The translations under genes were made by a program, and so were the position numbers. Positions 1,862 through 33,830 of a DNA stretch of 33,830 bases are shown piece by piece. The stretch is taken from NCBI RefSeq assembly GCF_000379525.1, contig NZ_KB902534.1:1-33830 (forward strand). The letters run 5' to 3'. The notes beneath the pieces are model-generated. The model saw nothing but the letters and a program-made list of their open reading frames with translations, was not told where the DNA came from and did no database searches. Each line of letters opens with the position of its first letter. Position 1 is the first letter of the stretch. This stretch comes from Lamprocystis purpurea DSM 4197. Its GTDB lineage: Bacteria > Pseudomonadota > Gammaproteobacteria > Chromatiales > Chromatiaceae.

Positions 1862-1916
1862 AAGCGGGCGGAGTCCAGGGCGGCGAGTCGGAAGGGTGCA
1901 TTCTAATGCGTCTCGC

Positions 1917-1933
1917 AGCGGCTGGAAGCCGCT
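1917..1933. repeat. Short palindrome AGCGGCT-GGA-AGCCGCT
   Basis: Seven-base arms around GGA in the gap between folE and the flippase, with no T-tail. It resembles the other GCT-rich short palindromes in the window, for example those at 18119-18192. It is probably a dispersed palindromic unit rather than a terminator. Confidence 0.45.
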
Positions 1934-1960
1934 TCTACTCAGGCTGCGCCGGGTCGCGCC

Positions 1961-2040
1961 GGATCAGGTCCTGATGGGATCAGGTCTTGATGGGATCAGG
2001 TCTTGATGGGATCAGGTCTTGATGGGATCAGGTCTTGATG
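1961..2040. repeat. Five tandem copies of a 16-bp unit overlapping the folE stop
   Basis: The unit GGATCAGGTCTTGATG occurs five times head to tail (1961-1976, 1977-1992, 1993-2008, 2009-2024, 2025-2040). Copies 2-5 are identical; the outermost has one change (CCTG for CTTG). Read on the minus strand, the innermost copy contains the last codons of folE (Ile-Lys-Thr) and its TGA stop, so the array seems to have grown by repeated duplication of the gene's own 3' end. Confidence 0.9.
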
Positions 2041-2666
2041 AAGGACATGAACTCCGAGCGGGTCGCTGGGTCGGTCTCAAAGGTCCCGCGCATAGCGCTG
2101 GAGACCGTCGTGCTGCGCTGCTTTTGTACGCCGCGCATCATCATGCAGGTGTGGCTCGCTTCCATCACGACCGCCACCCCGTGCGCCCCCAGGTGCGCCA
2201 TCAGCGCGTCCGCCACCTGATTGGTCAGTCGCTCCTGCACCTGGAGCCGGCGTGCGAAGCAGTCCACCACCCGCGCGACCTTCGATAGTCCGACCACGCG
2301 GCCGTTGGGCAGGTACCCGACGTGGGCATGGCCAAAGAAGGGCAGCATGTGGTGCTCGCACATGGAGTAGAACTCGATATCACGCACCACCACCATCTCC
2401 TTGACGTCTTCGGCAAAGAGCGCCTTCTTAATGATCTCCTCGGCCGAGAGGTCGTAACCGCTGGTCAGAAAATCCAGGGCCTTCGCGACCCGTAAGGGGG
2501 TGCGGCGCAGACCCTCCCGCTCCGGATTCTCTCCGATCTCGGTGAGCAGTGAGCGCACCAAGCCCTCTTTCTTCAGGTCGTAAACCTCATCCTCGGATTC
2601 CGCCTCGAAACTCGCCGCGTAATGTGCATGTGCCGAGATATTGGAAATTTGTGCTTTCTCTGACAT
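2028..2666 (-). CDS. folE: GTP cyclohydrolase I
   Basis: Converts GTP to 7,8-dihydroneopterin triphosphate, the first step of tetrahydrofolate synthesis and also the entry to queuosine precursors. The 212-residue length is normal. Zinc ligands are visible: Cys103 and His106 in the [10 protein letters not shown] motif and Cys174 in the HTCMMMRGV motif. GLSK and QVQERLT motifs are also present, and [13 protein letters not shown] marks the N-terminal helical part. A good AGGAGAG ribosome-binding site sits just upstream of the ATG at 2666. The stop codon lies inside the 16-bp tandem array. queG, which acts at the end of queuosine synthesis, lies 4 kb upstream on the same strand, but there is no sign of a shared transcript. 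Confidence 0.97.
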
Positions 2667-2769
2667 GGTTGCTCTCCTGCTGTAACCTGGGGTCTTACGG
2701 CCGCTTGCGGCGCGATGCGCTGCGGCGCCATTATCCGAACGTGGGGATGTGCGTGAGATATACCAAAGG

Positions 2770-3453
2770 TCAGGCGAGCGGTCCGATCAGGGTGCCCAAG
2801 AGCAGTACCGCGCTGGCACTGAGCGTGATCAGCACGTTATCGTCGATGGGGCCGAACTCGTAGCGCTCCACGATGGTCGCGACGATGGCCGAGATCACCC
2901 CCCATTCGGGGATTGCGGGGTCCGCATTCCCACCGATGATCCAGCCCATCGGTACGCAGACGATCAGCATGAAGACGTTGCCGACCGGGTCCTTGGAGCG
3001 GCGTCGGATCAGTGCATTGCGGGCGATGCCGGTCACGCCGTCACCGAACGCCATGTACAGCGCCGGCAAGACCGCCAGCCAGGGGTCACCGAGCAGCCAC
3101 CACAGCGCCGATACCGAGGCCGCCCACATGAGCGCAAACTTGACGTCGTTGGTATTCTCCGGGGTCTGGAACCAGTACAAGCGCAAACCGGTGCGGTGCG
3201 CCAGATAGGTGAACAGGGTCAGCAGAAGGCCGGCAATCAAGGGATACCAGGGGTCGGTGAAGACCAGCGGCACCATCAGTGAGCCCACGCCGCCGGCCAT
3301 CATATGGACGATTTTGCGGTTATAGTAAACTGCGCGGATCGGCTCCATCCCGCGCGCGACCATGGCCCGGTAGGGGATCAAGGTGAGGAACAGGACGGCC
3401 ATGGTGTACAGGCTAAGGCCGACGGCCCATGCGAATTGTGGAGAGATGCTCAT
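2770..3453 (-). CDS. Dolichol/phytol-kinase-like membrane protein (CTP-dependent polyprenol kinase family)
   Basis: A 227-residue protein with about seven hydrophobic segments. Motifs fit the CTP-using polyprenol-kinase family (SEC59/VTE5-like): [11 protein letters not shown] near residues 46-56, [12 protein letters not shown] near 136-147, a following KDPVGN, and a C-terminal [12 protein letters not shown] that would help bind CTP and metal. Known members phosphorylate dolichol, phytol or similar prenols. In a phototroph, recycling of phytol released from bacteriochlorophyll would be a sensible role, but the substrate is inference. It sits between the DsrC-like gene (52-base gap) and folE (103-base gap) on the same strand. 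A related CTP-linked lipid transferase remains possible. Confidence 0.65.
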
Positions 3454-3905: not shown

Positions 3906-6212
3906 CTAGCTTGCCGGTGGAACCGCCGCGGCCGCTGTTGGTGTACCGACATCGCTGCCTTGCAGCATCTTGCGGATCGACACCAGCGCCCGGTCGATGA
4001 ACGGGTGTTTCGGGCGCGGGATGACGCGTGCCCGACCGGCCAGGATCTCCTGCGCCAGATCGCGCAGGCTCTTGATTTCCGCTTGCATCCCGGATCTGTC
4101 CACGAACATGCAGGTGGCGGTCAAGGGGCTCATCCAAGACAACTTGATGCGCCGGACCGGTGTTCCCGGGTCGCCGCTGAACTCGAACCAGGTGCCGAAG
4201 CGCATGCGGCGCAGGCGCTCCACCATCTGGCGCTCGGGTTCAGAGAGATCCTCGTCGTCGCTGATGCTGCTCTCCAGGGTGGGAGGCGAGGTGGAGTCGC
4301 CCGACTGGCCGGGCATGCCCGGCAAGGGGATCTCCGGCCGCTCCAGGGTTTGTGACGGCCAGTTCTGGGGGGCGTCCAGCAGGGCGATCAAGGCGTCGAT
4401 AGCGGCGGTATTGAAGCCGCCGACGCGCGCGGCCGTATTGACGATTGTTTCGCGCAGTTTGGGAATCGTCTCGATGCGTGCGCGGCGCATCTCAGGCGAG
4501 GTGCGTGGATCGAACAATGCGACCAACTGTTCGGCGACCGCGACGGCGTGCTTCCAGGTGGGGCCGCGCTCCTGCTCCTCGTCGCGCAGCAGGATGAACA
4601 CCAGATGATCCATCCAGGTTTTGGAGAGGAACCCGGCGACCGGCTGCGGCACCGGATAGAGTCCGAACAGACCCTGGATCTCGCGGGCGGCGCGCTGCTT
4701 CGCCAAGGTCAATTTCTCGCGCCCGCGGACCGCCTCCTGGGTGCGTTGCTCCATGGTGTCGCTCCGCCGCTGTTGGTCGCGCATCTTCTCGTCGAAGAAG
4801 TGCAGGAGGTCATCGAACAGGCCGACGTCATCGGAGAATTCCTGCAGCACCCGATCAACGATCTGCTGCAAGGCGGGGAACATGCCGCGGCTCGGGTTGC
4901 CTTCCTCCACCCACTGGCTGCCGGCCTCGACCATTTGATCCAGCAAGCGACGGGCCGGGTGCCGGCTGTCGACGAGGAGCCGACGGTCGATCAACGCGAC
5001 CTTGAGGTAGGGGGTGTGCAGATGGCTCAGCAGAGCCTTGGCGACGTTTGGCAGTACCGGGTCGTTGAGCATGTACTCGAACAGCATGCCGATCAGGTCG
5101 ATCAGGTCCGCATCCATGGGCGAGAGCTTGTTGCGGTCGACGGAGTTCAAGACCTTCTCGCGTTCGAGGCTGAGTGCCTCCTTGACCCGGTTGATGAAGC
5201 TCGAATCGATCTCGACGTTCGGGAACGCGGCCATGTCGGTCGTCACGGTCGACCCCTGCTCAACGGCGCTGCTGGCCTGTAGGCTGCTGATCGCACTCAG
5301 CAGTTCGCGTGTCTGCGCCTGTGTTTCCGCGGGGGATGGAGCGCCCATGGACCCGCCCGGTCGGCCGCCGCGTCGGCCGCCGCGTCTGGTCGACATCAGA
5401 TCGAGGATCGAGTCGAATAATTCGGCCCCCAAGGCCTGGGGCTCCACCTGATCGGCACCCGCGGTCTTCTCGGATTCGGACTCGGGTTTTCCCCCGTCGC
5501 CATGCTCCGCCGCGTCCCTGCCCGCGGCATTGCGGATGTGCACCGGTTTGAGGTTCGGGAGGATGCCGGCGGCGATCAGGATTGCGTTATATTCGACGTA
5601 GGTCGCGCGCGCTTTTTTCAGCACGAATTTATCGAACAGGGCGTAGAGGATGATCTTGACGCGTACCTCCACATCCAGCCCCTCCAGGGCGCGGCGGAAG
5701 CATTGCACCACATGGTGAGGTCCCGCGGGAATCTCGAAATCCTTGAGTTTGCGCCCGCCGATGACCGCGCCGAGGCGTTGGCTCAGCGCGTAGAGTTCCG
5801 GGAAATAATTGGCATTCGCACGTAAGACCAGGTTCTCGGCCGCGACCGACTCTTCCATCTCGTCGGGTTCGACGAGCGAAAGTTCCACCCCGAATCCCTC
5901 GCCTGATTCGGACGCTTCGGAGGATTGTGGTTTCGATTTCCCCAGCACGTCGAACCCGAGATTGATCTCCTGACGGAAGATGTGCTCAATGTCGCTGCGG
6001 CGGCGCGTCAACTGGCCCATGGCCTCGAAGAACCGGCTTTGGACCGCATTGCTCTCCGCGCGCTCCGCGAAGTCCAGCAGGGCGGCCCCCGCATTTTGGA
6101 ACAGATCGGCCAACTGCGTATCGAAGAACACCAAGACGGTGTCCCGGCATTGGTCCATGACGGCGTCGTACTGCCGCCGGTTCCCTGATCGAGTGATGGT
6201 GTTATTGGACAT
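3906..6212 (-). CDS. DUF1631 family protein
   Basis: A large, probably cytoplasmic protein of 768 residues with no signal peptide or membrane segment, matching the DUF1631 family of gammaproteobacteria (sometimes misnamed thymidine phosphorylase). It is mostly helical, with an acidic low-complexity stretch around residues 225-255 and an arginine/glycine-rich linker around 275-290. The C-terminal 100 residues (GTWFEFSGDPGTPVRRIKLSWMSP...) look like the compact beta-rich PilZ-like tail reported for this family. No catalytic residues are recognisable. The stop is 94 bases ahead of the DsrC-like gene on the same strand. No strong ribosome-binding site is seen before the ATG. The function is unknown. 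Confidence 0.8.
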   Translation of the reverse strand: MSNNTITRSGNRRQYDAVMDQCRDTVLVFFDTQLADLFQNAGAALLDFAERAESNAVQSRFFEAMGQLTRRRSDIEHIFRQEINLGFDVLGKSKPQSSEASESGEGFGVELSLVEPDEMEESVAAENLVLRANANYFPELYALSQRLGAVIGGRKLKDFEIPAGPHHVVQCFRRALEGLDVEVRVKIILYALFDKFVLKKARATYVEYNAILIAAGILPNLKPVHIRNAAGRDAAEHGDGGKPESESEKTAGADQVEPQALGAELFDSILDLMSTRRGGRRGGRPGGSMGAPSPAETQAQTRELLSAISSLQASSAVEQGSTVTTDMAAFPNVEIDSSFINRVKEALSLEREKVLNSVDRNKLSPMDADLIDLIGMLFEYMLNDPVLPNVAKALLSHLHTPYLKVALIDRRLLVDSRHPARRLLDQMVEAGSQWVEEGNPSRGMFPALQQIVDRVLQEFSDDVGLFDDLLHFFDEKMRDQQRRSDTMEQRTQEAVRGREKLTLAKQRAAREIQGLFGLYPVPQPVAGFLSKTWMDHLVFILLRDEEQERGPTWKHAVAVAEQLVALFDPRTSPEMRRARIETIPKLRETIVNTAARVGGFNTAAIDALIALLDAPQNWPSQTLERPEIPLPGMPGQSGDSTSPPTLESSISDDEDLSEPERQMVERLRRMRFGTWFEFSGDPGTPVRRIKLSWMSPLTATCMFVDRSGMQAEIKSLRDLAQEILAGRARVIPRPKHPFIDRALVSIRKMLQGSDVGTPTAAAAVPPAS

Positions 6213-8156: not shown

Positions 8157-8837
8157 TTATGCAGATTCACTTGCGTTCATGTGCGAACCGTTTTCTCCTT
8201 GCGGCGCCGGGGTCTTGTCCGGAAACTCGCACAGGTCGGCGATGGGGCAGGTGGGACACTTGGGGGTGCGTGCCACGCAGCAGTAACGACCGTGCAGAAT
8301 CAGCCAGTGGTGGGCGTTCTGGAGGAACTCGCGGGGGGTGTGGCGCAGGAGCTTGTGCTCCACCGCCAGCGGCGTGGCCCCCGGGGCGATCCGGGTGCGG
8401 TTACCGACGCGAAAGATGTGGGTATCGACCGCCATCGTCGGCTCACCGAAGGCGGTATTGAGCACCACGTTGGCGGTCTTGCGGCCCACGCCGGGTAGTG
8501 CTTCCAGCAACTCGCGGGTGCGGGGCACAGCGCCGCCGTGGGCAGCCAACAAGTGCTCGCAGGTCTTGATGATATTGCGTGCCTTGCTGTTGAAGAGGCC
8601 GATGGTGCGGATATGGGATTTCAGTCCCTCCTCGCCCAGGTTGAGGATCGCCTGGGGTGTGTTGGCCACTGGGAAGAGCCGGGCGGTGGCCTGGTTGACC
8701 GCCTTGTCGGTCGCTTGGGCGGAGAGGATGACGGCGATCAGCAGTTCAAAGGGGCTTTGATACACCAGTTCGGTGGTTGGTGCCGGGTTGGCGGCGCGCA
8801 GGCGCTCGAAGATCCGGCGGCGTTTGGTATCGTTCAT
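8157..8837 (-). CDS. nth: Endonuclease III
   Basis: DNA glycosylase/AP lyase that removes oxidised pyrimidines in base-excision repair. At 226 residues it aligns almost position by position with the E. coli enzyme. The helix-hairpin-helix LPGVGRKTANV carries the catalytic Lys120, and AVDTHIFRV carries the catalytic Asp138. The C-terminal 4Fe-4S ligands are Cys187, Cys194, Cys197 and Cys203. It is the first gene of the leftward nth-DUF1841-queG group and diverges from the restriction-modification cassette. The SOS box at 8925-8940 lies 87 bases upstream, but the promoter overlapping that box faces the other way. Confidence 0.97.
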   Translation of the reverse strand: MNDTKRRRIFERLRAANPAPTTELVYQSPFELLIAVILSAQATDKAVNQATARLFPVANTPQAILNLGEEGLKSHIRTIGLFNSKARNIIKTCEHLLAAHGGAVPRTRELLEALPGVGRKTANVVLNTAFGEPTMAVDTHIFRVGNRTRIAPGATPLAVEHKLLRHTPREFLQNAHHWLILHGRYCCVARTPKCPTCPIADLCEFPDKTPAPQGENGSHMNASESA

Positions 8838-8907
8838 CGTGTCGGGAAGATAAGGCGTCCGTCACCGCGTGCCAAGTCCCAAGCACGATCCCCGCGTGGC
8901 TTCGCGC

Positions 8908-8940
8908 TTGCAAAATGCCTGGATCTGGATAAAAATACAG
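8908..8940 (+). promoter_or_regulatory. Candidate SOS promoter with LexA box
   Basis: CTGGATAAAAATACAG at 8925-8940 is a complete CTG-N10-CAG LexA operator with an A/T-rich centre; seven of the ten central bases match the enterobacterial consensus. It overlaps a plausible rightward promoter: -35 TTGCAA at 8908-8913, 16-base spacer, -10 TAAAAA at 8930-8935. LexA bound here would block the -10. The next rightward gene is the DNA methyltransferase, 80 bases on; lexA lies 2.1 kb downstream behind the methylase and nuclease. The remaining bases of the gap 8838-9020 show no gene. Confidence 0.7.
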
Positions 8941-9020
8941 CTATCGCAGACCGTCTCACGATTTGACAGCAATCGCCTGACATCAAGCCGGTCCCGCCCT
9001 GGGAATCTCGGAGCAACTCC

Positions 9021-9998
9021 ATGTATCTCAAACGGACTTCACCATATCATCCCTACTACACCAGTGCTTTGGGAGAAGCCTTTCTGTGCGATACCCTGGA
9101 GTTTTTGCCTTTTCTGTGTGATGCGTCCGTAGACCTGATCCTCACCTCGCCGCCCTTTGCGCTCAAACGCAAGAAAGAGTACGGCAATGAGGAAGAAGAC
9201 AAATACTGCGACTGGTTCATGTCCTTCGCCCCGCATCTGTACCGGATTCTCAAGGATGATGGTTCCTTTGTTCTCGATCTGGGCGGGGCCTACAAACCGG
9301 GGTTCCCCGTACGCTCCATTTACCAGTTCGAGTTGCTGGTGCGGCTGGTCAAGGAGACTGGATTTTATCTGGCACAGGAGTTTTACCACTACAATCCGGC
9401 GCGTCTGCCGGCACCGGCCGAGTGGGTCAATGTACGTCGTGTGCGGGTCAAGGATTCGGTGAATGTTGTCTGGTGGTTGTCCAAGACACCGAATCCCAAA
9501 GCCGATAACCGGCAAGTGTTGCGGCCTTACAGCGACAGTATGCAAAGTCTGTTGAAAAACGGCTACAAGGCGAAGCTGCGGCCGAGCGGACACGACATCT
9601 CGGAGAAGTTTTCGCGTGACAATGGCGGCGCGATCCCCCCGAACCTACTTGAATTGGCCAATACCGACAGTAACGGCCGCTACCAGCAGCTGTGCCGTGA
9701 ATATGGCGTTAAGGTCCATCCGGCGCGCTTTCCGCCGCAGTTCGCCGAATTCTTTATCAAATTTTTAACCGATGAGGGCGCCTTGGTATACGACATCTTC
9801 GCCGGCTCCAATACCACCGGATTCGTTGCCGAGAAATTGGCGCGCCGGTGGCTGGCGACCGAACTCTCCGAAGAATACCTGCGGGGCAGTAAATTTCGCT
9901 TTATGGACAAGGATCTGCCGGTGAAAGTCAGCAAGCGGGTGACACGCGCAGTGGAGAAGGAAAACCTTCAGATGTCGCTTTTTCCAAACAAGAAATGA
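9021..9998 (+). CDS. DNA (cytosine-N4)-methyltransferase, PvuII-type
   Basis: Modification half of a type II restriction-modification pair. The catalytic motif IV, TSPPF, lies near the N-terminus (SPPF at 43-46), and the AdoMet-binding motif DIFAGSNTTGFVAEKLARRW follows near residues 258-275. This order is typical of beta-class methylases, and SPP(F/Y) favours N4-cytosine methylation. Many stretches recall M.PvuII: ALKRKKEYGN, RPSGHD, DNGGAIPPNLLE, VHPARFP. This is recalled from memory, not searched; if right, CAGCTG or a related site is the likely target. GGAG precedes the ATG. The gene overlaps the HNH gene by four bases (ATGA). Its base composition is visibly less G+C-rich than its neighbours, which suggests transfer. 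Confidence 0.9.
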   Translation: MYLKRTSPYHPYYTSALGEAFLCDTLEFLPFLCDASVDLILTSPPFALKRKKEYGNEEEDKYCDWFMSFAPHLYRILKDDGSFVLDLGGAYKPGFPVRSIYQFELLVRLVKETGFYLAQEFYHYNPARLPAPAEWVNVRRVRVKDSVNVVWWLSKTPNPKADNRQVLRPYSDSMQSLLKNGYKAKLRPSGHDISEKFSRDNGGAIPPNLLELANTDSNGRYQQLCREYGVKVHPARFPPQFAEFFIKFLTDEGALVYDIFAGSNTTGFVAEKLARRWLATELSEEYLRGSKFRFMDKDLPVKVSKRVTRAVEKENLQMSLFPNKK

Positions 9999-10987
9999 GC
10001 GGACCACTGCGCAAGCAAGATCTGTTGAAGCGAGTCCTTTTAGGGGTCGATGCCAGTGGTTGGCAGGCGCTTGTCGTTCATCGATCACACCCGTTCGGTT
10101 TGCGCATATTCAGGTGCGAAGACGCCCATTTTATCAGTTTTCGCATCTATATCTGGAACTGTACACCAGGCGGCAGGAACCGTCCCGTTGACGAATTTCG
10201 GGTGCAGCTTACGGGTACGGTCCCGCAAGCTGAAAGGGGAGAGATAACCTTATTACTTGGTTGGCATGAGGGTTACGGTGTCTTCGTCGGGTTCGACATG
10301 CGTCGACATGCCGGCCAAGCATCGGCTTCTCCCTCCATTCAAGTCAAGGAGGCATCATTGCTCAATGCGCACAACCGGGCATTCTCCGCATATGATCGAG
10401 CAAATGGTGAAATCGCGATCTGTTTCCGTCCGGAATTCCTGGTCGAATATTGTATGAATCTGGCAACGCTTCACGGTTTTACGGCTGATGACGAAGCTTT
10501 AGGGATGTTGAATACGATCGATACGTTGAATGAGCGTGACGTTGAGACCAGGATCGCCAGTTTCGAACGGCGCGAGGTCATCGCCACTATTAGAAAAAAA
10601 TATCGTGAGTATGATTTCCGCCGTCGTGTTGTAACCGCTTACGCAGCAACCTGTGCTTTTTGCGGTGTACAGCTAAGGTTAGTTGAAGCCGCCCATATCA
10701 TTCCGGTAGCGGCAGATTCAAGTACGGACGAAACGCGCAACGGTGTCGCTTTGTGCGCGCTGCACCACCGCGCTTACGATCAGAATCTGATCAGCTTCGA
10801 TGAAGCGTATCGCATTGAAGTCAGTGCTACGGCGATCATGCGGCTAAGCGAAAGCGGTTTGGCGGGTGGCTTGGCAGCATTTCGCGAAGGCATCAAAAGT
10901 GCGATCGTTCTGCCGGCGGATAAGCGCGATTATCCAGCCCGACAGTATGTTGCAAAAAGTCGCGAGATCCGGCAATGGCAAACATGA
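9995..10987 (+). CDS. HNH endonuclease, probable restriction partner
   Basis: A 330-residue protein. The C-terminal third holds an HNH nuclease fold: CAFCG near residue 219, then [10 protein letters not shown], then [21 protein letters not shown], giving the zinc-binding Cys pairs and the catalytic His/Asn/His. The first 200 residues are a separate domain without recognisable catalytic residues and probably recognise DNA; they resemble the methylase-associated domains found N-terminal to HNH in similar cassettes. Its start overlaps the methylase stop by four bases and lacks its own ribosome-binding site, so translation is probably coupled and methylase is made first. The classical PvuII nuclease is not HNH, so the methylase/nuclease pairing is mixed. 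Low-GC composition matches the methylase. Confidence 0.8.
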
Positions 10988-11030
10988 GTTGTTCCTATCG
11001 GGTCGACCGCGCCATCGGAGGCCAAGCACA

Positions 11031-11729
11031 GTGATCGACCAACTCACCGATCGCCAGCGCCAGATACTGGATCTGATCCAGCGTCATATCCGCGTGACCG
11101 GCGTGCCGCCGACCCGGGCCGAAATCGCCCGCATCCTGGGGTTCCGCTCCGTCAATGCCGCGGAGGACCACCTGCGCGCCCTGGCCCGGCATGGTGTCAT
11201 CGAACTCACGCGCGGGCGCTCGCGGGGCATTCGACTGATTGCGGATGGGGCGATCGGGGGGGACGCGAATGCGGATACGCGGCCCGGTGCGGCGGGTGGG
11301 TTCGGTGCGGGAGCGGACCTGCCGGTGATCGGGAGGGTGGCCGCCGGCAGTCCGATTCTGGCCGCGGAGCATGTTGAGGACCGTCATCGGATCAGCCCCG
11401 ATCTGTTCCGTCCGCGGGCGGACTACTTGCTGCGGGTGCGCGGCAGCAGTATGCGCGACGTGGGTATCCTCGACGGCGACTTGCTCGCCGTGCATGCCTC
11501 TGCGGAGGCGCAGAATGGTCAGATCGTCGTCGCGCGGCTTGCTGATGAGGTGACGGTCAAGCGACTGCGCCGCCATGCCCGCTGGGAACATCGCGTGCAA
11601 CTCCTGGCGGAGAATCCGGAGTTTCCGCCCATCGTGGTGGACCTGCGGGAGCAGGAACTGGTCATTGAGGGCATTGCCGTGGGCGTGCTGCGCCTGGGGT
11701 TGGCCGCGCCGCTGCAGGTCGACGACTGA
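11031..11729 (+). CDS. lexA: LexA repressor
   Basis: Master repressor of the SOS response. The start chosen is a GTG at 11031 with GGAGG just upstream, giving [20 protein letters not shown], the normal LexA beginning; the longer open frame back to 10866 only reads through the end of the nuclease gene. The 232-residue protein has the N-terminal winged helix ([25 protein letters not shown]). The self-cleavage bond is Ala105-Gly106, with catalytic Ser140 in GSSMRD and Lys177 in VTVKRL. A glycine/alanine-rich linker before the cleavage site is longer than in E. coli. No LexA box lies between the nuclease gene and this start; the nearest is 2.1 kb upstream, before the methylase. Confidence 0.95.
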
Positions 11730-11769
11730 GCGCTTGTTTCAGGTTTTTTTCACACAGCATCTTGCCGCC

Positions 11770-12390
11770 ATGTCCATCCAACAAATCCTCGATCGGCACC
11801 CCGACCTGTGGCGCGGCCGGGTGGCGCCGGAGCAGGTCCCGGCGGGAGTGCCGACCGGGTGTGCGGCACTGGATCGGGAACTGGTCTGGGGTGGTTGGCC
11901 GCCCGGTAGTTTGAGCGAGCTGCTCAGTGCACGGATGGGCGACGGACTCGGGCTGGTCCTGCCGACCCTGGCGCGGCTCAGTACCGAACCGCGCTGGCTG
12001 CTGCTGGTTGACCCGCCCTGGCTACCCTTCGCACCGGCCCTGGCCGCCCATGGTCTGGTGCTCGAACAGGTGGTGGTCATCAACGCCGGTACGCGGTCCG
12101 CCTGGGCCGCCGAGCAGGGATTAGGCTCCGGCGCCTGTGCGGCGGTGCTGCTGTGGGGTGGCGGGCCTTGGAATCCTACGCGGCTGCGCCGGCTCCAGTT
12201 GGCTGCTGAGACCGGCGGCGCACTGGCTTTTTTGTTTCGTGATCCGGCGGCCTGCCGTAGTCCCTCGCCTGCGCCACTGCGCCTGCAAGTAGAGCGGATC
12301 GCTGACGGCCGGCGGGTGACGGTGCTCAAGCAGCGCGGCGGTCGCGGTGGGGTCGTCTTGACCCTGAGTAACGAGTCAAGCATAAGTTAA
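11770..12390 (+). CDS. imuA: ImuA/SulA-like RecA-related SOS protein
   Basis: A 206-residue protein with the pattern of ImuA: VPTGCAALDRELVWGGWPPGSLSELLS in place of a RecA Walker A region, then RWLLLVDPPWLPFAPALAAHGL and WAAEQGLGSGACAAVLLWGG. In bacteria with the full set, ImuA works with ImuB and DnaE2 in damage-induced mutagenesis; neither partner follows here. The same superfamily includes the cell-division inhibitor found next to lexA in pseudomonads, so a SulA-type role is the main alternative. It lies 40 bases after lexA and is almost surely co-transcribed. The ATG at 11770 is chosen because it begins the conserved MSIQQILDRHPDLWRG; upstream codons overlap lexA. Confidence 0.8.
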   Translation: MSIQQILDRHPDLWRGRVAPEQVPAGVPTGCAALDRELVWGGWPPGSLSELLSARMGDGLGLVLPTLARLSTEPRWLLLVDPPWLPFAPALAAHGLVLEQVVVINAGTRSAWAAEQGLGSGACAAVLLWGGGPWNPTRLRRLQLAAETGGALAFLFRDPAACRSPSPAPLRLQVERIADGRRVTVLKQRGGRGGVVLTLSNESSIS

Positions 12391-12424
12391 ACAACGACAA
12401 CGACCGAGACGCCAAAGGAGATCC
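12391..12424 (+). repeat. Dispersed ACAACG-type repeat containing a ribosome-binding site
   Basis: This 34-base stretch matches 13600-13633 at 29 positions: an (ACAACG) run followed by CGAGA.G.CAAAGG.G.TCC. The AAAGGAGA in it is the ribosome-binding site of the following gene, whose TTG start is at 12426. It begins directly after the imuA stop. Confidence 0.7.
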
Positions 12425-12425
12425 C

Positions 12426-13445
12426 TTGCGTATCGACTCCATTCGTCAGCGCCTGCAGGCCCAGGGCGCGAAGCACTGTCACGAACAGCGGGTGTTGCAG
12501 GCTTGGGCGCGCGGCCTGTCCGTGGATACCCGTCACCGTCGCGCCGAAGATTTCCTGCCGCTGCGGGTGCGCGCGGTGCTGCCGGCCTTGTTGGGCGAAT
12601 TGCAGGGTCTGGCCCGGCTGCGGTCCGAACATCCTGATGCCGACGGTTCCGCCCGGCTCCTGGTCGCGCTGGCCGATGATCAGTTGATCGAGAGCGTCCT
12701 GTTGCCGCGCAATGGCCTGTGCGTGTCCACTCAGGTCGGTTGCGCGGTCGGTTGCCGCTTTTGCATGACCGGGCGCTCCGGCCTGCTGCGCCAACTCGGC
12801 AGCGCCGAGATCGTCGCCCAGGTGGCACTCGCCCGCACGCGCCGCCCGGTCGAGCGGGTCTTGTTCATGGGAATGGGTGAACCGGCGCATAACCTCGACA
12901 ACGTGCTCGAGGCCATCGAACTGCTCGGCACCGTCGGGGCGATCGGGCACAAGCATCTGGTCTTTTCCACGGTCGGCGACCGGCGCGTCTTCGCGCGTCT
13001 GCCGCAAAGCCCGGTGAAGCCGGCGCTGGCCCTGTCACTACACAGCACGCGCGCGGAGCTGCGTGCCCGGCTGTTGCCCAAAGCACCGTTGATCGATCCG
13101 GAAGCCCTGGTCGATCTGGCCGAGTGCTATGCCCGCGCGACCGGCTGTCCGACCCAATATCAGTGGACCTTACTTGCCGGCGTCAACGACGGCGACGAAG
13201 AACTGAACGGCATCATCAGGCTCCTCACCGGGAAATACGCGATGATGAACTTCATCCCGTATAACTCGAACGAGGGACTCGGGTTCAGCCGGCCCTCATG
13301 GGAGCACGCGTCGGCGATGGCCGCCCGGTTACAGCAAGCGGGGATCGTCACCCGCCTGCGCAACTCGGTTGGACAGTCGATCGACGGTGGTTGCGGGCAG
13401 TTGCGGGCGCGGGTCCAGGACCACTTAGTCACGAGTCAGAAATAA
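12426..13445 (+). CDS. RlmN/Cfr-family radical SAM RNA methylase
   Basis: A 339-residue radical SAM enzyme of the family that methylates C2 (RlmN) or C8 (Cfr) of adenine 2503 in 23S rRNA; RlmN also acts on some tRNAs. The CxxxCxxC iron-sulfur motif is Cys106, Cys110, Cys113. The two cysteines of the unusual RlmN/Cfr mechanism are also present: Cys99 and Cys323 (IDGGCGQL). MGMGEP and LALSLHST motifs match. It is shorter than most RlmN proteins, with a reduced N-terminal domain, so it may be a paralogue rather than the housekeeping enzyme. The start is TTG with a strong AGGAGA upstream. It may share the lexA-imuA transcript (35-base gap). Confidence 0.85.
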   Translation: MRIDSIRQRLQAQGAKHCHEQRVLQAWARGLSVDTRHRRAEDFLPLRVRAVLPALLGELQGLARLRSEHPDADGSARLLVALADDQLIESVLLPRNGLCVSTQVGCAVGCRFCMTGRSGLLRQLGSAEIVAQVALARTRRPVERVLFMGMGEPAHNLDNVLEAIELLGTVGAIGHKHLVFSTVGDRRVFARLPQSPVKPALALSLHSTRAELRARLLPKAPLIDPEALVDLAECYARATGCPTQYQWTLLAGVNDGDEELNGIIRLLTGKYAMMNFIPYNSNEGLGFSRPSWEHASAMAARLQQAGIVTRLRNSVGQSIDGGCGQLRARVQDHLVTSQK

Positions 13446-33547: not shown

Positions 33548-33830
33548 GGCTCATGAGGCCAAGTGTGTGAGCCTTTATTAATTTAGAATGATAGACGATA
33601 ATGAAATACCGCACAGCACATAATTATCTTTTTGGACTGATATGCTCATTTTTTCCGTCATCGAGTTAATGGACGAACAGAAATGCTATGATTTCTTGGT
33701 TAATATACTTCATCCGACTGGTCTAGGGTGCCCTGTTTGTCAATGCCCAGTTGAAGATTCGAAAATTCACAGAAGAGATCGCGCGCCAGTTCTATACTAC
33801 AAATGTGCTAACGGACATATTTATAACGCA
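33548..33830 (+). mobile_element. Insertion sequence end (right copy, cut by window)
   Basis: 33548-33805 is the exact reverse complement of 1-258; the last 25 bases continue into the transposase and cannot be compared. The element starts GGCTCATGAGGCC, then an AT-rich leader, then a transposase reading out of the window. The other end is outside the window. Confidence 0.75.
33642..33830 (+). CDS. IS1595-like transposase, N-terminal fragment (window edge)
   Basis: Open from the ATG at 33642 to the window end, 63 codons. The zinc-ribbon is seen in full: GCPVCQCPVE around residues 29-38 and YYKCANGHIYNA at 52-63. An internal ATG at residue 10 (MDEQKC) is an alternative start. Family assignment rests on this domain and the RAPVLYY stretch; the catalytic part is outside. 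Confidence 0.62.
   Translation, partial: MLIFSVIELMDEQKCYDFLVNILHPTGLGCPVCQCPVEDSKIHRRDRAPVLYYKCANGHIYNA

Follow-up and report, generated by a model that had tools for sequence, protein, structure and literature searches.

A PvuII-type methylase gene and an HNH nuclease gene between the LexA operator and lexA of Lamprocystis purpurea: a candidate SOS-regulated restriction-modification cassette

Organization of the locus

The DNA analysed, hereafter the window, comprises 33,830 bp of Lamprocystis purpurea DSM 4197 (contig NZ_KB902534.1, positions 1 to 33,830 of the forward strand; assembly GCF_000379525.1), whose genome (G000) has a size of 6.9 Mb. In this stretch, a DNA methylase gene and an HNH nuclease gene, together a cassette of about 2.1 kb, are located between the LexA operator and the gene of the SOS repressor itself, lexA. 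The features of the locus are detailed in Table 1; G-numbers designate the genomes compared and L-numbers the loci.

The original prediction, made from the window alone, had described a LexA box overlapping a rightward promoter, methylase and HNH nuclease genes sharing a 4-base overlap, lexA 43 bases further on and then imuA, and a cassette less rich in G+C than its flanks. This layout was borne out, since the −10 element falls within the box and the gene order agrees with the open reading frames and their family matches; the G+C content was 0.51–0.57 in intervals of the cassette versus 0.60–0.69 in flanking ones. The lexA product possesses the DNA-binding and S24 peptidase domains (PF01726 and PF00717, above cut-offs), and its best match to a LexA repressor structure had an E value of 6.5e-71. 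No controller (C) gene was found in the cassette, and there is no room for one in the 43-bp nuclease–lexA gap or in the 80-bp box–methylase gap. An assembly artefact was ruled out by the same arrangement in three separate assemblies.

Table 1. Features of the nth–imuA region of the window.
Feature	Position	Strand	Characteristics
nth (endonuclease III)	8157..8837	-	TIGR01083 equivalog above cut-off; divergent gene at the border of the insertion site; adjoins lexA also in five empty loci
Ancestral lexA promoter	8908..8936	+	−35 TTGCAA 8908-8913; 17-nt spacer; −10 AAAAAT 8931-8936
LexA operator (box) CTGGATAAAAATACAG	8925..8940	.	Overlaps −10
New methylase leader, about 80 nt	8941..9020	+	GGAG at 9010-9013
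DNA methyltransferase, PvuII (N4-cytosine) type	9021..9998	+	PF01555; match to structure 1boo
MTaX1-HNH nuclease	9995..10987	+	PF20296 MTaX1 and PF13391 HNH_2
Nuclease–lexA gap, 43 bp	10988..11030	+	Shine-Dalgarno-like GGAGG 11017-11021; no LexA box
lexA, GTG start	11031..11729	+	TIGR00498 equivalog, 216 bits vs. cut-off 111
imuA (family also related to SulA), next gene of the presumed operon	11770..12390	+	NF033429, 176 bits vs. cut-off 150; weak SulA matches
RlmN-like gene	from 12426		3' of imuA

Empty sites in related genomes

Five of the seven same-genus genomes examined (G001, G002, G003, G005 and G007) were cassette-free, with nth and lexA divergent, and in all five 2 bp lie between the end of the box and the position at which lexA starts. 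The 16-bp box is identical to that of the window in G001, G003, G005 and G007, and differs by one base in G002. TTGCAA-17-AAAAAT was the best promoter in the four empty loci scanned (G001, G002, G003 and G007), and the same letters are present in G005. The distance from the end of its −10 element to the lexA start is 6 nt, or 7 nt if the alternative TAAAAA with a 16-nt spacer is taken, and thus a leaderless or nearly leaderless lexA message is predicted in the empty loci. In G001, about 190 extra bp separate nth from the box, yet the box is still attached to lexA; nth and lexA with the box near lexA were also found in G022 and G030, which belong to other genera of the family. The presence of the box directly before lexA in all the empty relatives indicates that it belongs to lexA and not to nth. 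The locus of G002 (L120, around 1883-3255) shows ACG at the lexA start position, internal extra residues and an imuA matching in two pieces, which may reflect either decay or sequence error.

Filled sites and survey of lexA upstream regions

The cassette was carried by three species, those of the window, G004 and G006. The 16 positions of the box are identical in the three carriers, and it is the methylase gene, not lexA, that comes next, the distance from the box to lexA being 2090 bp in the window, 2138 bp in G004 and 2090 bp in G006. No box was present in the last 400 bp before lexA in any of them. The original prediction had further claimed that no LexA box lies between the nuclease gene and lexA, that uninterrupted relatives should have the same box directly before lexA, and that the cassette inserted between the promoter and operator of lexA and the gene. 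The first claim held in all three cassette-bearing loci and the second in every cassette-free genus member, and the empty sites support the third, the operator and the promoter being unchanged.

In the carriers lexA starts with GTG, nine bases after a GGAGG motif, and its translation, predicted to begin at a leaderless ATG before the insertion, appears now to begin at a GTG preceded by a Shine-Dalgarno-like sequence. The letters GACCGTCTCACGAT in the window hinted that part of the former lexA start might survive directly behind the box; G004 does not have them, and no such remnant is claimed. The gap before lexA in G004 (L034, 5915-6000) is 43 bases longer; it contains seven consecutive T and a short inverted repeat, and additional regulation of lexA is possible there.

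To place these loci among others, 102 distinct lexA genes (at least 52% identity, near full-length, duplicates merged) from 132 loci (L001 to L131 and the window) were surveyed for boxes with CTG...CAG ends and at most three mismatches to CTGTATNNNNATACAG. A box was found within 400 bp in 94 of the 102, counted without a shuffled control and with two genes having less than 400 bp of upstream sequence; operator–lexA adjacency is thus the usual state. The other eight were the three carriers, two Burkholderiales loci (L045 and L074) with the box 489 and 510 bp off, and three genes without a recognisable box. Few loci of this sample have genes between the operator and lexA, and the three carriers were the only ones with a restriction pair in that position. 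In L045 (819-1235) and L074 (5532-5990), an open reading frame of 138 and 152 aa, respectively, lies between the LexA box and lexA; the two are 50% identical to each other and had no Pfam or NCBIfam match.

Specificity of the LexA box

The site at 8925-8940 was the only one in the window with no more than one mismatch to CTGTAT-N6-ACAG. The strict pattern CTGKATANNNATACAG occurred at two places in the whole genome of L. purpurea, and its reversed control at none. The second strict box (contig C135, 49478-49493; L199) lies directly upstream of an error-prone DNA polymerase gene, whose match to NF004225 reached 613 bits over the available 481 residues, the cut-off of 939 applying to the full protein. 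In G004 and G006 the strict box was likewise present at exactly two places, the lexA operator and the same polymerase gene (C257/L315 and C176/L316; 97–98% identical over the part compared), and each of the five cassette-free genus mates had it once, at lexA. Every strict match in the eight genomes therefore corresponds to a lexA operator or to the region upstream of an error-prone polymerase.

Allowing three mismatches, G000 gave 8 forward and 7 reverse matches, not above the control (11 and 8), and weaker LexA sites therefore cannot be called. No CTG-N10-CAG was found around recA of this genome, between 400 bp upstream and 150 bp downstream of the point where its open frame begins. The SOS regulon of the cassette carriers, as far as these sites indicate, may be very small. 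Two contigs of G000 (L205 and L206, 1501-1516) share a common LexA-like site, CTGTAAAAATAGACAG, with right flanks nearly alike and left flanks that differ, as at the end of a mobile element.

Methylase, nuclease and target site

The methylase matched the M.PvuII structure 1boo (E 3.2e-112, residues 10–317) and was 52% identical to the methylase of the Proteus vulgaris plasmid NC_002632; on these matches it is a clear M.PvuII homologue. The nuclease consists of an MTaX1 domain joined to an HNH_2 domain, and the A-A-H-I-x-P, N-G and H-x-A-Y-D residues of its core were invariant in six homologues, so that, as in a type II restriction-modification system, the methylase adjoins a nuclease with an intact catalytic motif; the methylase itself was assessed from its alignment to M.PvuII along its full length. 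Solved structures exist for R.PvuII; the nuclease of the cassette had no match at E 0.1 among PDB sequences and, by this test, is not R.PvuII-like.

Carriers would be expected to have few CAGCTG sites if this sequence, the PvuII site, is the one that the pair recognizes. Counts in partial genome samples were compared with those expected from shorter words, and the ranking was restricted to palindromes for which 5 or more occurrences were expected. CAGCTG was found 24 times vs. 82.7 expected in G000 (434 kb; ratio rank 1 of 60, z-score third), 18 times vs. 45.4 in G004 (ratio rank 2 of 58, z-score eighth) and 3 times vs. 10.1 in G006 (ratio rank 2 of 44, z-score third). In G003, which is cassette-free and without a close methylase homologue, it occurred 50 times vs. 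67.9 expected (rank 24 of 57). The avoidance in the carriers fits, as indirect evidence, a working CAGCTG system.

Origin and history of the cassette

A tree based on nth and LexA placed the three carriers in one group, with a FastTree support of 0.98, and the five genus mates lacking the cassette, as well as two outgroups, fell outside it; one insertion in the ancestor of the carriers thus suffices, the empty state being ancestral. The pairwise ratios of nonsynonymous to synonymous substitution rates (dN/dS) among the carriers were 0.06 for the methylase, 0.14–0.21 for the nuclease, 0.08–0.11 for LexA and 0.14–0.17 for nth; judged by these ratios, all four genes, open in the carriers, are constrained.

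The same pair in the same order was detected on the Thiothrix winogradskyi plasmid pThCT3_1 (77% and 56% identity for methylase and nuclease, genes overlapping) and on the Roseivivax marinus plasmid unnamed4 (59% and 38%, genes 3 bp apart), and a related pair with the order reversed in G140. No LexA box at two or fewer mismatches was present in the stretches of these loci that were scanned (4.2 and 6.0 kb for the plasmids), and no lexA was annotated in those of the two plasmids. The cassette resembles a mobile restriction system that was not under LexA control when it was acquired.

A search with the nuclease in a draw of 194 genomes of the family matched 26, and only G000, G004, G006 and G140 matched over most of the protein with E <1e-50, G004 and G006 at E <1e-200. 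Among 369 genomes of the class, the source genome was the only match at E 1e-20, G004 and G006 evidently lying outside this draw. At both ends of the contig, positions 1-258 and 33548-33805 form a perfect 258-bp inverted repeat, and the contig thus probably owes its ends to two copies of the same repeated element, at which assembly stopped.

Proposed regulation

Autoregulation of lexA is, in general, established. We consider it probable, from the comparison of filled and empty sites, that methylase, nuclease, lexA and imuA form one SOS-regulated operon driven by the captured lexA promoter, and that LexA represses a mobile restriction system through it. A mobile restriction-modification pair would have inserted a few bases 3' of the lexA operator, before the lexA start codon, in the ancestor of the three Chromatiaceae-related species. 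RNA polymerase would start next to 8941 once LexA leaves the box, giving one LexA-repressed transcript with methylase, nuclease, lexA and imuA, and LexA, in repressing the restriction system, would thereby limit its own synthesis as well.

DNA damage leads to RecA-stimulated self-cleavage of LexA, upon which methylase, nuclease, LexA and ImuA would be induced together; the arrangement is most simply read as joint induction of restriction-modification and lexA. An autoregulated lexA needs some basal expression, so that the restriction pair would be weakly expressed by default and more strongly after damage. LexA would act somewhat like a controller protein, autoregulated and encoded in the same operon, but it would be a host protein responding to DNA damage. 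The alternative offered in the original prediction, that lexA now depends on read-through, is the same model seen from lexA. A rather doubtful extension is a closed loop with LexA as the controller protein: under-methylated self-DNA would be cut, RecA would inactivate LexA, and the captured promoter would make more methylase, together with nuclease and LexA, until the genome is protected. The downstream lexA would also tie the mobile cassette to the host, because polar damage to the cassette would upset SOS control.

Alternative explanations

A number of observations, given here with the rival explanations on which they bear, weigh against the operon model. The main rival, which we regard as unlikely, is that lexA has acquired a LexA-independent promoter of its own, either within the 3' end of the nuclease gene or within the 43-86-bp gap; the restriction pair alone would then remain under the old operator, and autoregulation of LexA would have ended. 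Lower-scoring promoter-like pairs do occur near lexA: over the ~600 bp preceding it, the four best of each carrier scored 5.4–6.8, with maxima of 6.4 in the window (3' region of the nuclease gene), 6.8 in G004 and 6.4 in G006. The 43 extra gap bases of G004 carry such a pair (TTGCTC-16-TATGGT, score 6.4), and lexA has a Shine-Dalgarno-like sequence of its own. All of these scores are below that of the lexA promoter, whose 8.5, at the operator, was the best in the nth–methylase gap; they derive from approximate weights with no null model behind them, and are weak evidence. A consensus scan of 8700-12500 gave no promoter on the + strand, a silence of little meaning because the scan also misses the lexA promoter. 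Two terminator-like hairpins (9345 and 10642) were located on the + strand of the cassette, vs. a mean of 4.0 in shuffles. Very unlikely, in turn, is a cassette that is only a passenger, with restriction silent or dead and nothing but read-through to lexA of importance. Polarity alone would select against stop codons in it, and among the genes compared no single pairwise dN/dS exceeded the 0.205 of the nuclease; against this stand the low ratio of the methylase, a nuclease ratio well below 1, the invariant HNH core and the avoidance of CAGCTG. This avoidance is not the strongest everywhere, as the carriers' z-score ranks indicate, and CAGCTG was also low in G001 (12 vs. 28.0 expected, rank 8 of 51), cassette-free and without a close methylase homologue, so that avoidance is no specific proof of a CAGCTG system; in G007, cassette-free at lexA and with a PvuII-like methylase elsewhere, the count was 18 vs. 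79.7 (rank 4 of 60). On the Roseivivax plasmid (L198, 28-1392), a separately annotated restriction endonuclease directly precedes the methylase, so that in such systems the HNH protein may be accompanied by another nuclease or may not be the cognate one, and on this plasmid it may be an extra.

It is extremely unlikely that the box is an operator of nth or a chance site, in which case the neighbourhood would be uninformative on lexA control. By itself, CTG-N10-CAG is no more frequent in the window than chance would give (10 occurrences vs. 9.35 expected), nth diverges from the box, and the reversed strict pattern had 0, 1, 1, 0, 2, 0 and 3 matches in G001 to G007, respectively; with 0–3 reversed matches per genome, the box count alone is no proof and location is what tells. 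The location of the box, over the −10 of a rightward promoter and next to lexA in the empty loci, even where extra DNA separates it from nth as in G001, and the restriction of strict matches to the lexA operator and the polymerase gene largely contradict this explanation. A second, distant LexA, 35–40% identical, is also encoded in G000; at L130, a gene for such a LexA (35% identical; 4907-5488, - strand) is divergent from a LexA/UmuD-like gene (5663-6052, + strand), and similar distant copies occur in several genus mates. With regard to descent, identities between the window and G004 were 95.7% for LexA, 95.5% for nth, 95.4% for the methylase and 90.0% for the nuclease, and between the window and G006 92.7%, 94.6%, 98.8% and 92.7%, respectively. 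The flanks are thus closer to G004 and the cassette to G006, descent at the locus is not purely vertical, and recombination of the cassette segment among close species is likely.

Relation to known systems and significance

The cassette shares with PvuII-type systems a methylase of the M.PvuII family, and CAGCTG is avoided in its carriers; it differs from them by its MTaX1-HNH nuclease, the absence of a C gene and LexA as the presumed repressor. The plasmid-borne pairs have the same two genes in the same order, but no LexA box or annotated lexA in the stretches scanned, and that of Roseivivax has the extra upstream endonuclease. In comparison with the lexA–imuA operon of the uninterrupted genus mates, lexA, imuA, operator and promoter are the same, whereas here two restriction-modification genes come first and lexA has a GTG start with a Shine-Dalgarno-like sequence.

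LexA represses the Escherichia coli toxin gene symE, a member of a family associated with restriction-modification islands (PMC1891008). The likeness is a LexA-repressed gene of a family linked to restriction-modification genes; there, LexA controls a toxin near restriction genes, whereas here the operator of lexA itself precedes them. In restriction-modification systems with C proteins, PvuII among them, a regulator that delays the nuclease is encoded with the methylase and the nuclease and feeds back on the promoter (PMC8053105). In contrast, LexA is the host SOS repressor, and no feature seen at this locus would make the nuclease lag behind the methylase. In Caulobacter, LexA control is suspected for a gene encoding a Vsr-like nuclease (PMC12907096).

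LexA is not mentioned in the accessible sections of a long review of restriction biology (PMC12707154), and in the open-licence literature searched no paper seemed, judging by its title and the opening of its abstract, to report a restriction-modification system inside a lexA operon, most subscription journals being outside this scope. The enzyme pair is of a known kind and so is the switch; their combination was not found described.

Type II restriction systems that cut their own genome trigger the SOS response, and its induction is described for post-segregational killing and for systems that are unbalanced (PMC3874152). In L. purpurea and the two related species the wiring seems to run the other way too: control of the restriction genes would lie with the SOS repressor, whose own synthesis would depend on the promoter they share. 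The locus would provide a natural case, with empty-site controls in sister species, of how a host repressor gets co-opted to run an acquired defence system, and also allows asking how lexA autoregulation tolerates a 2-kb insertion between the operator and its gene.

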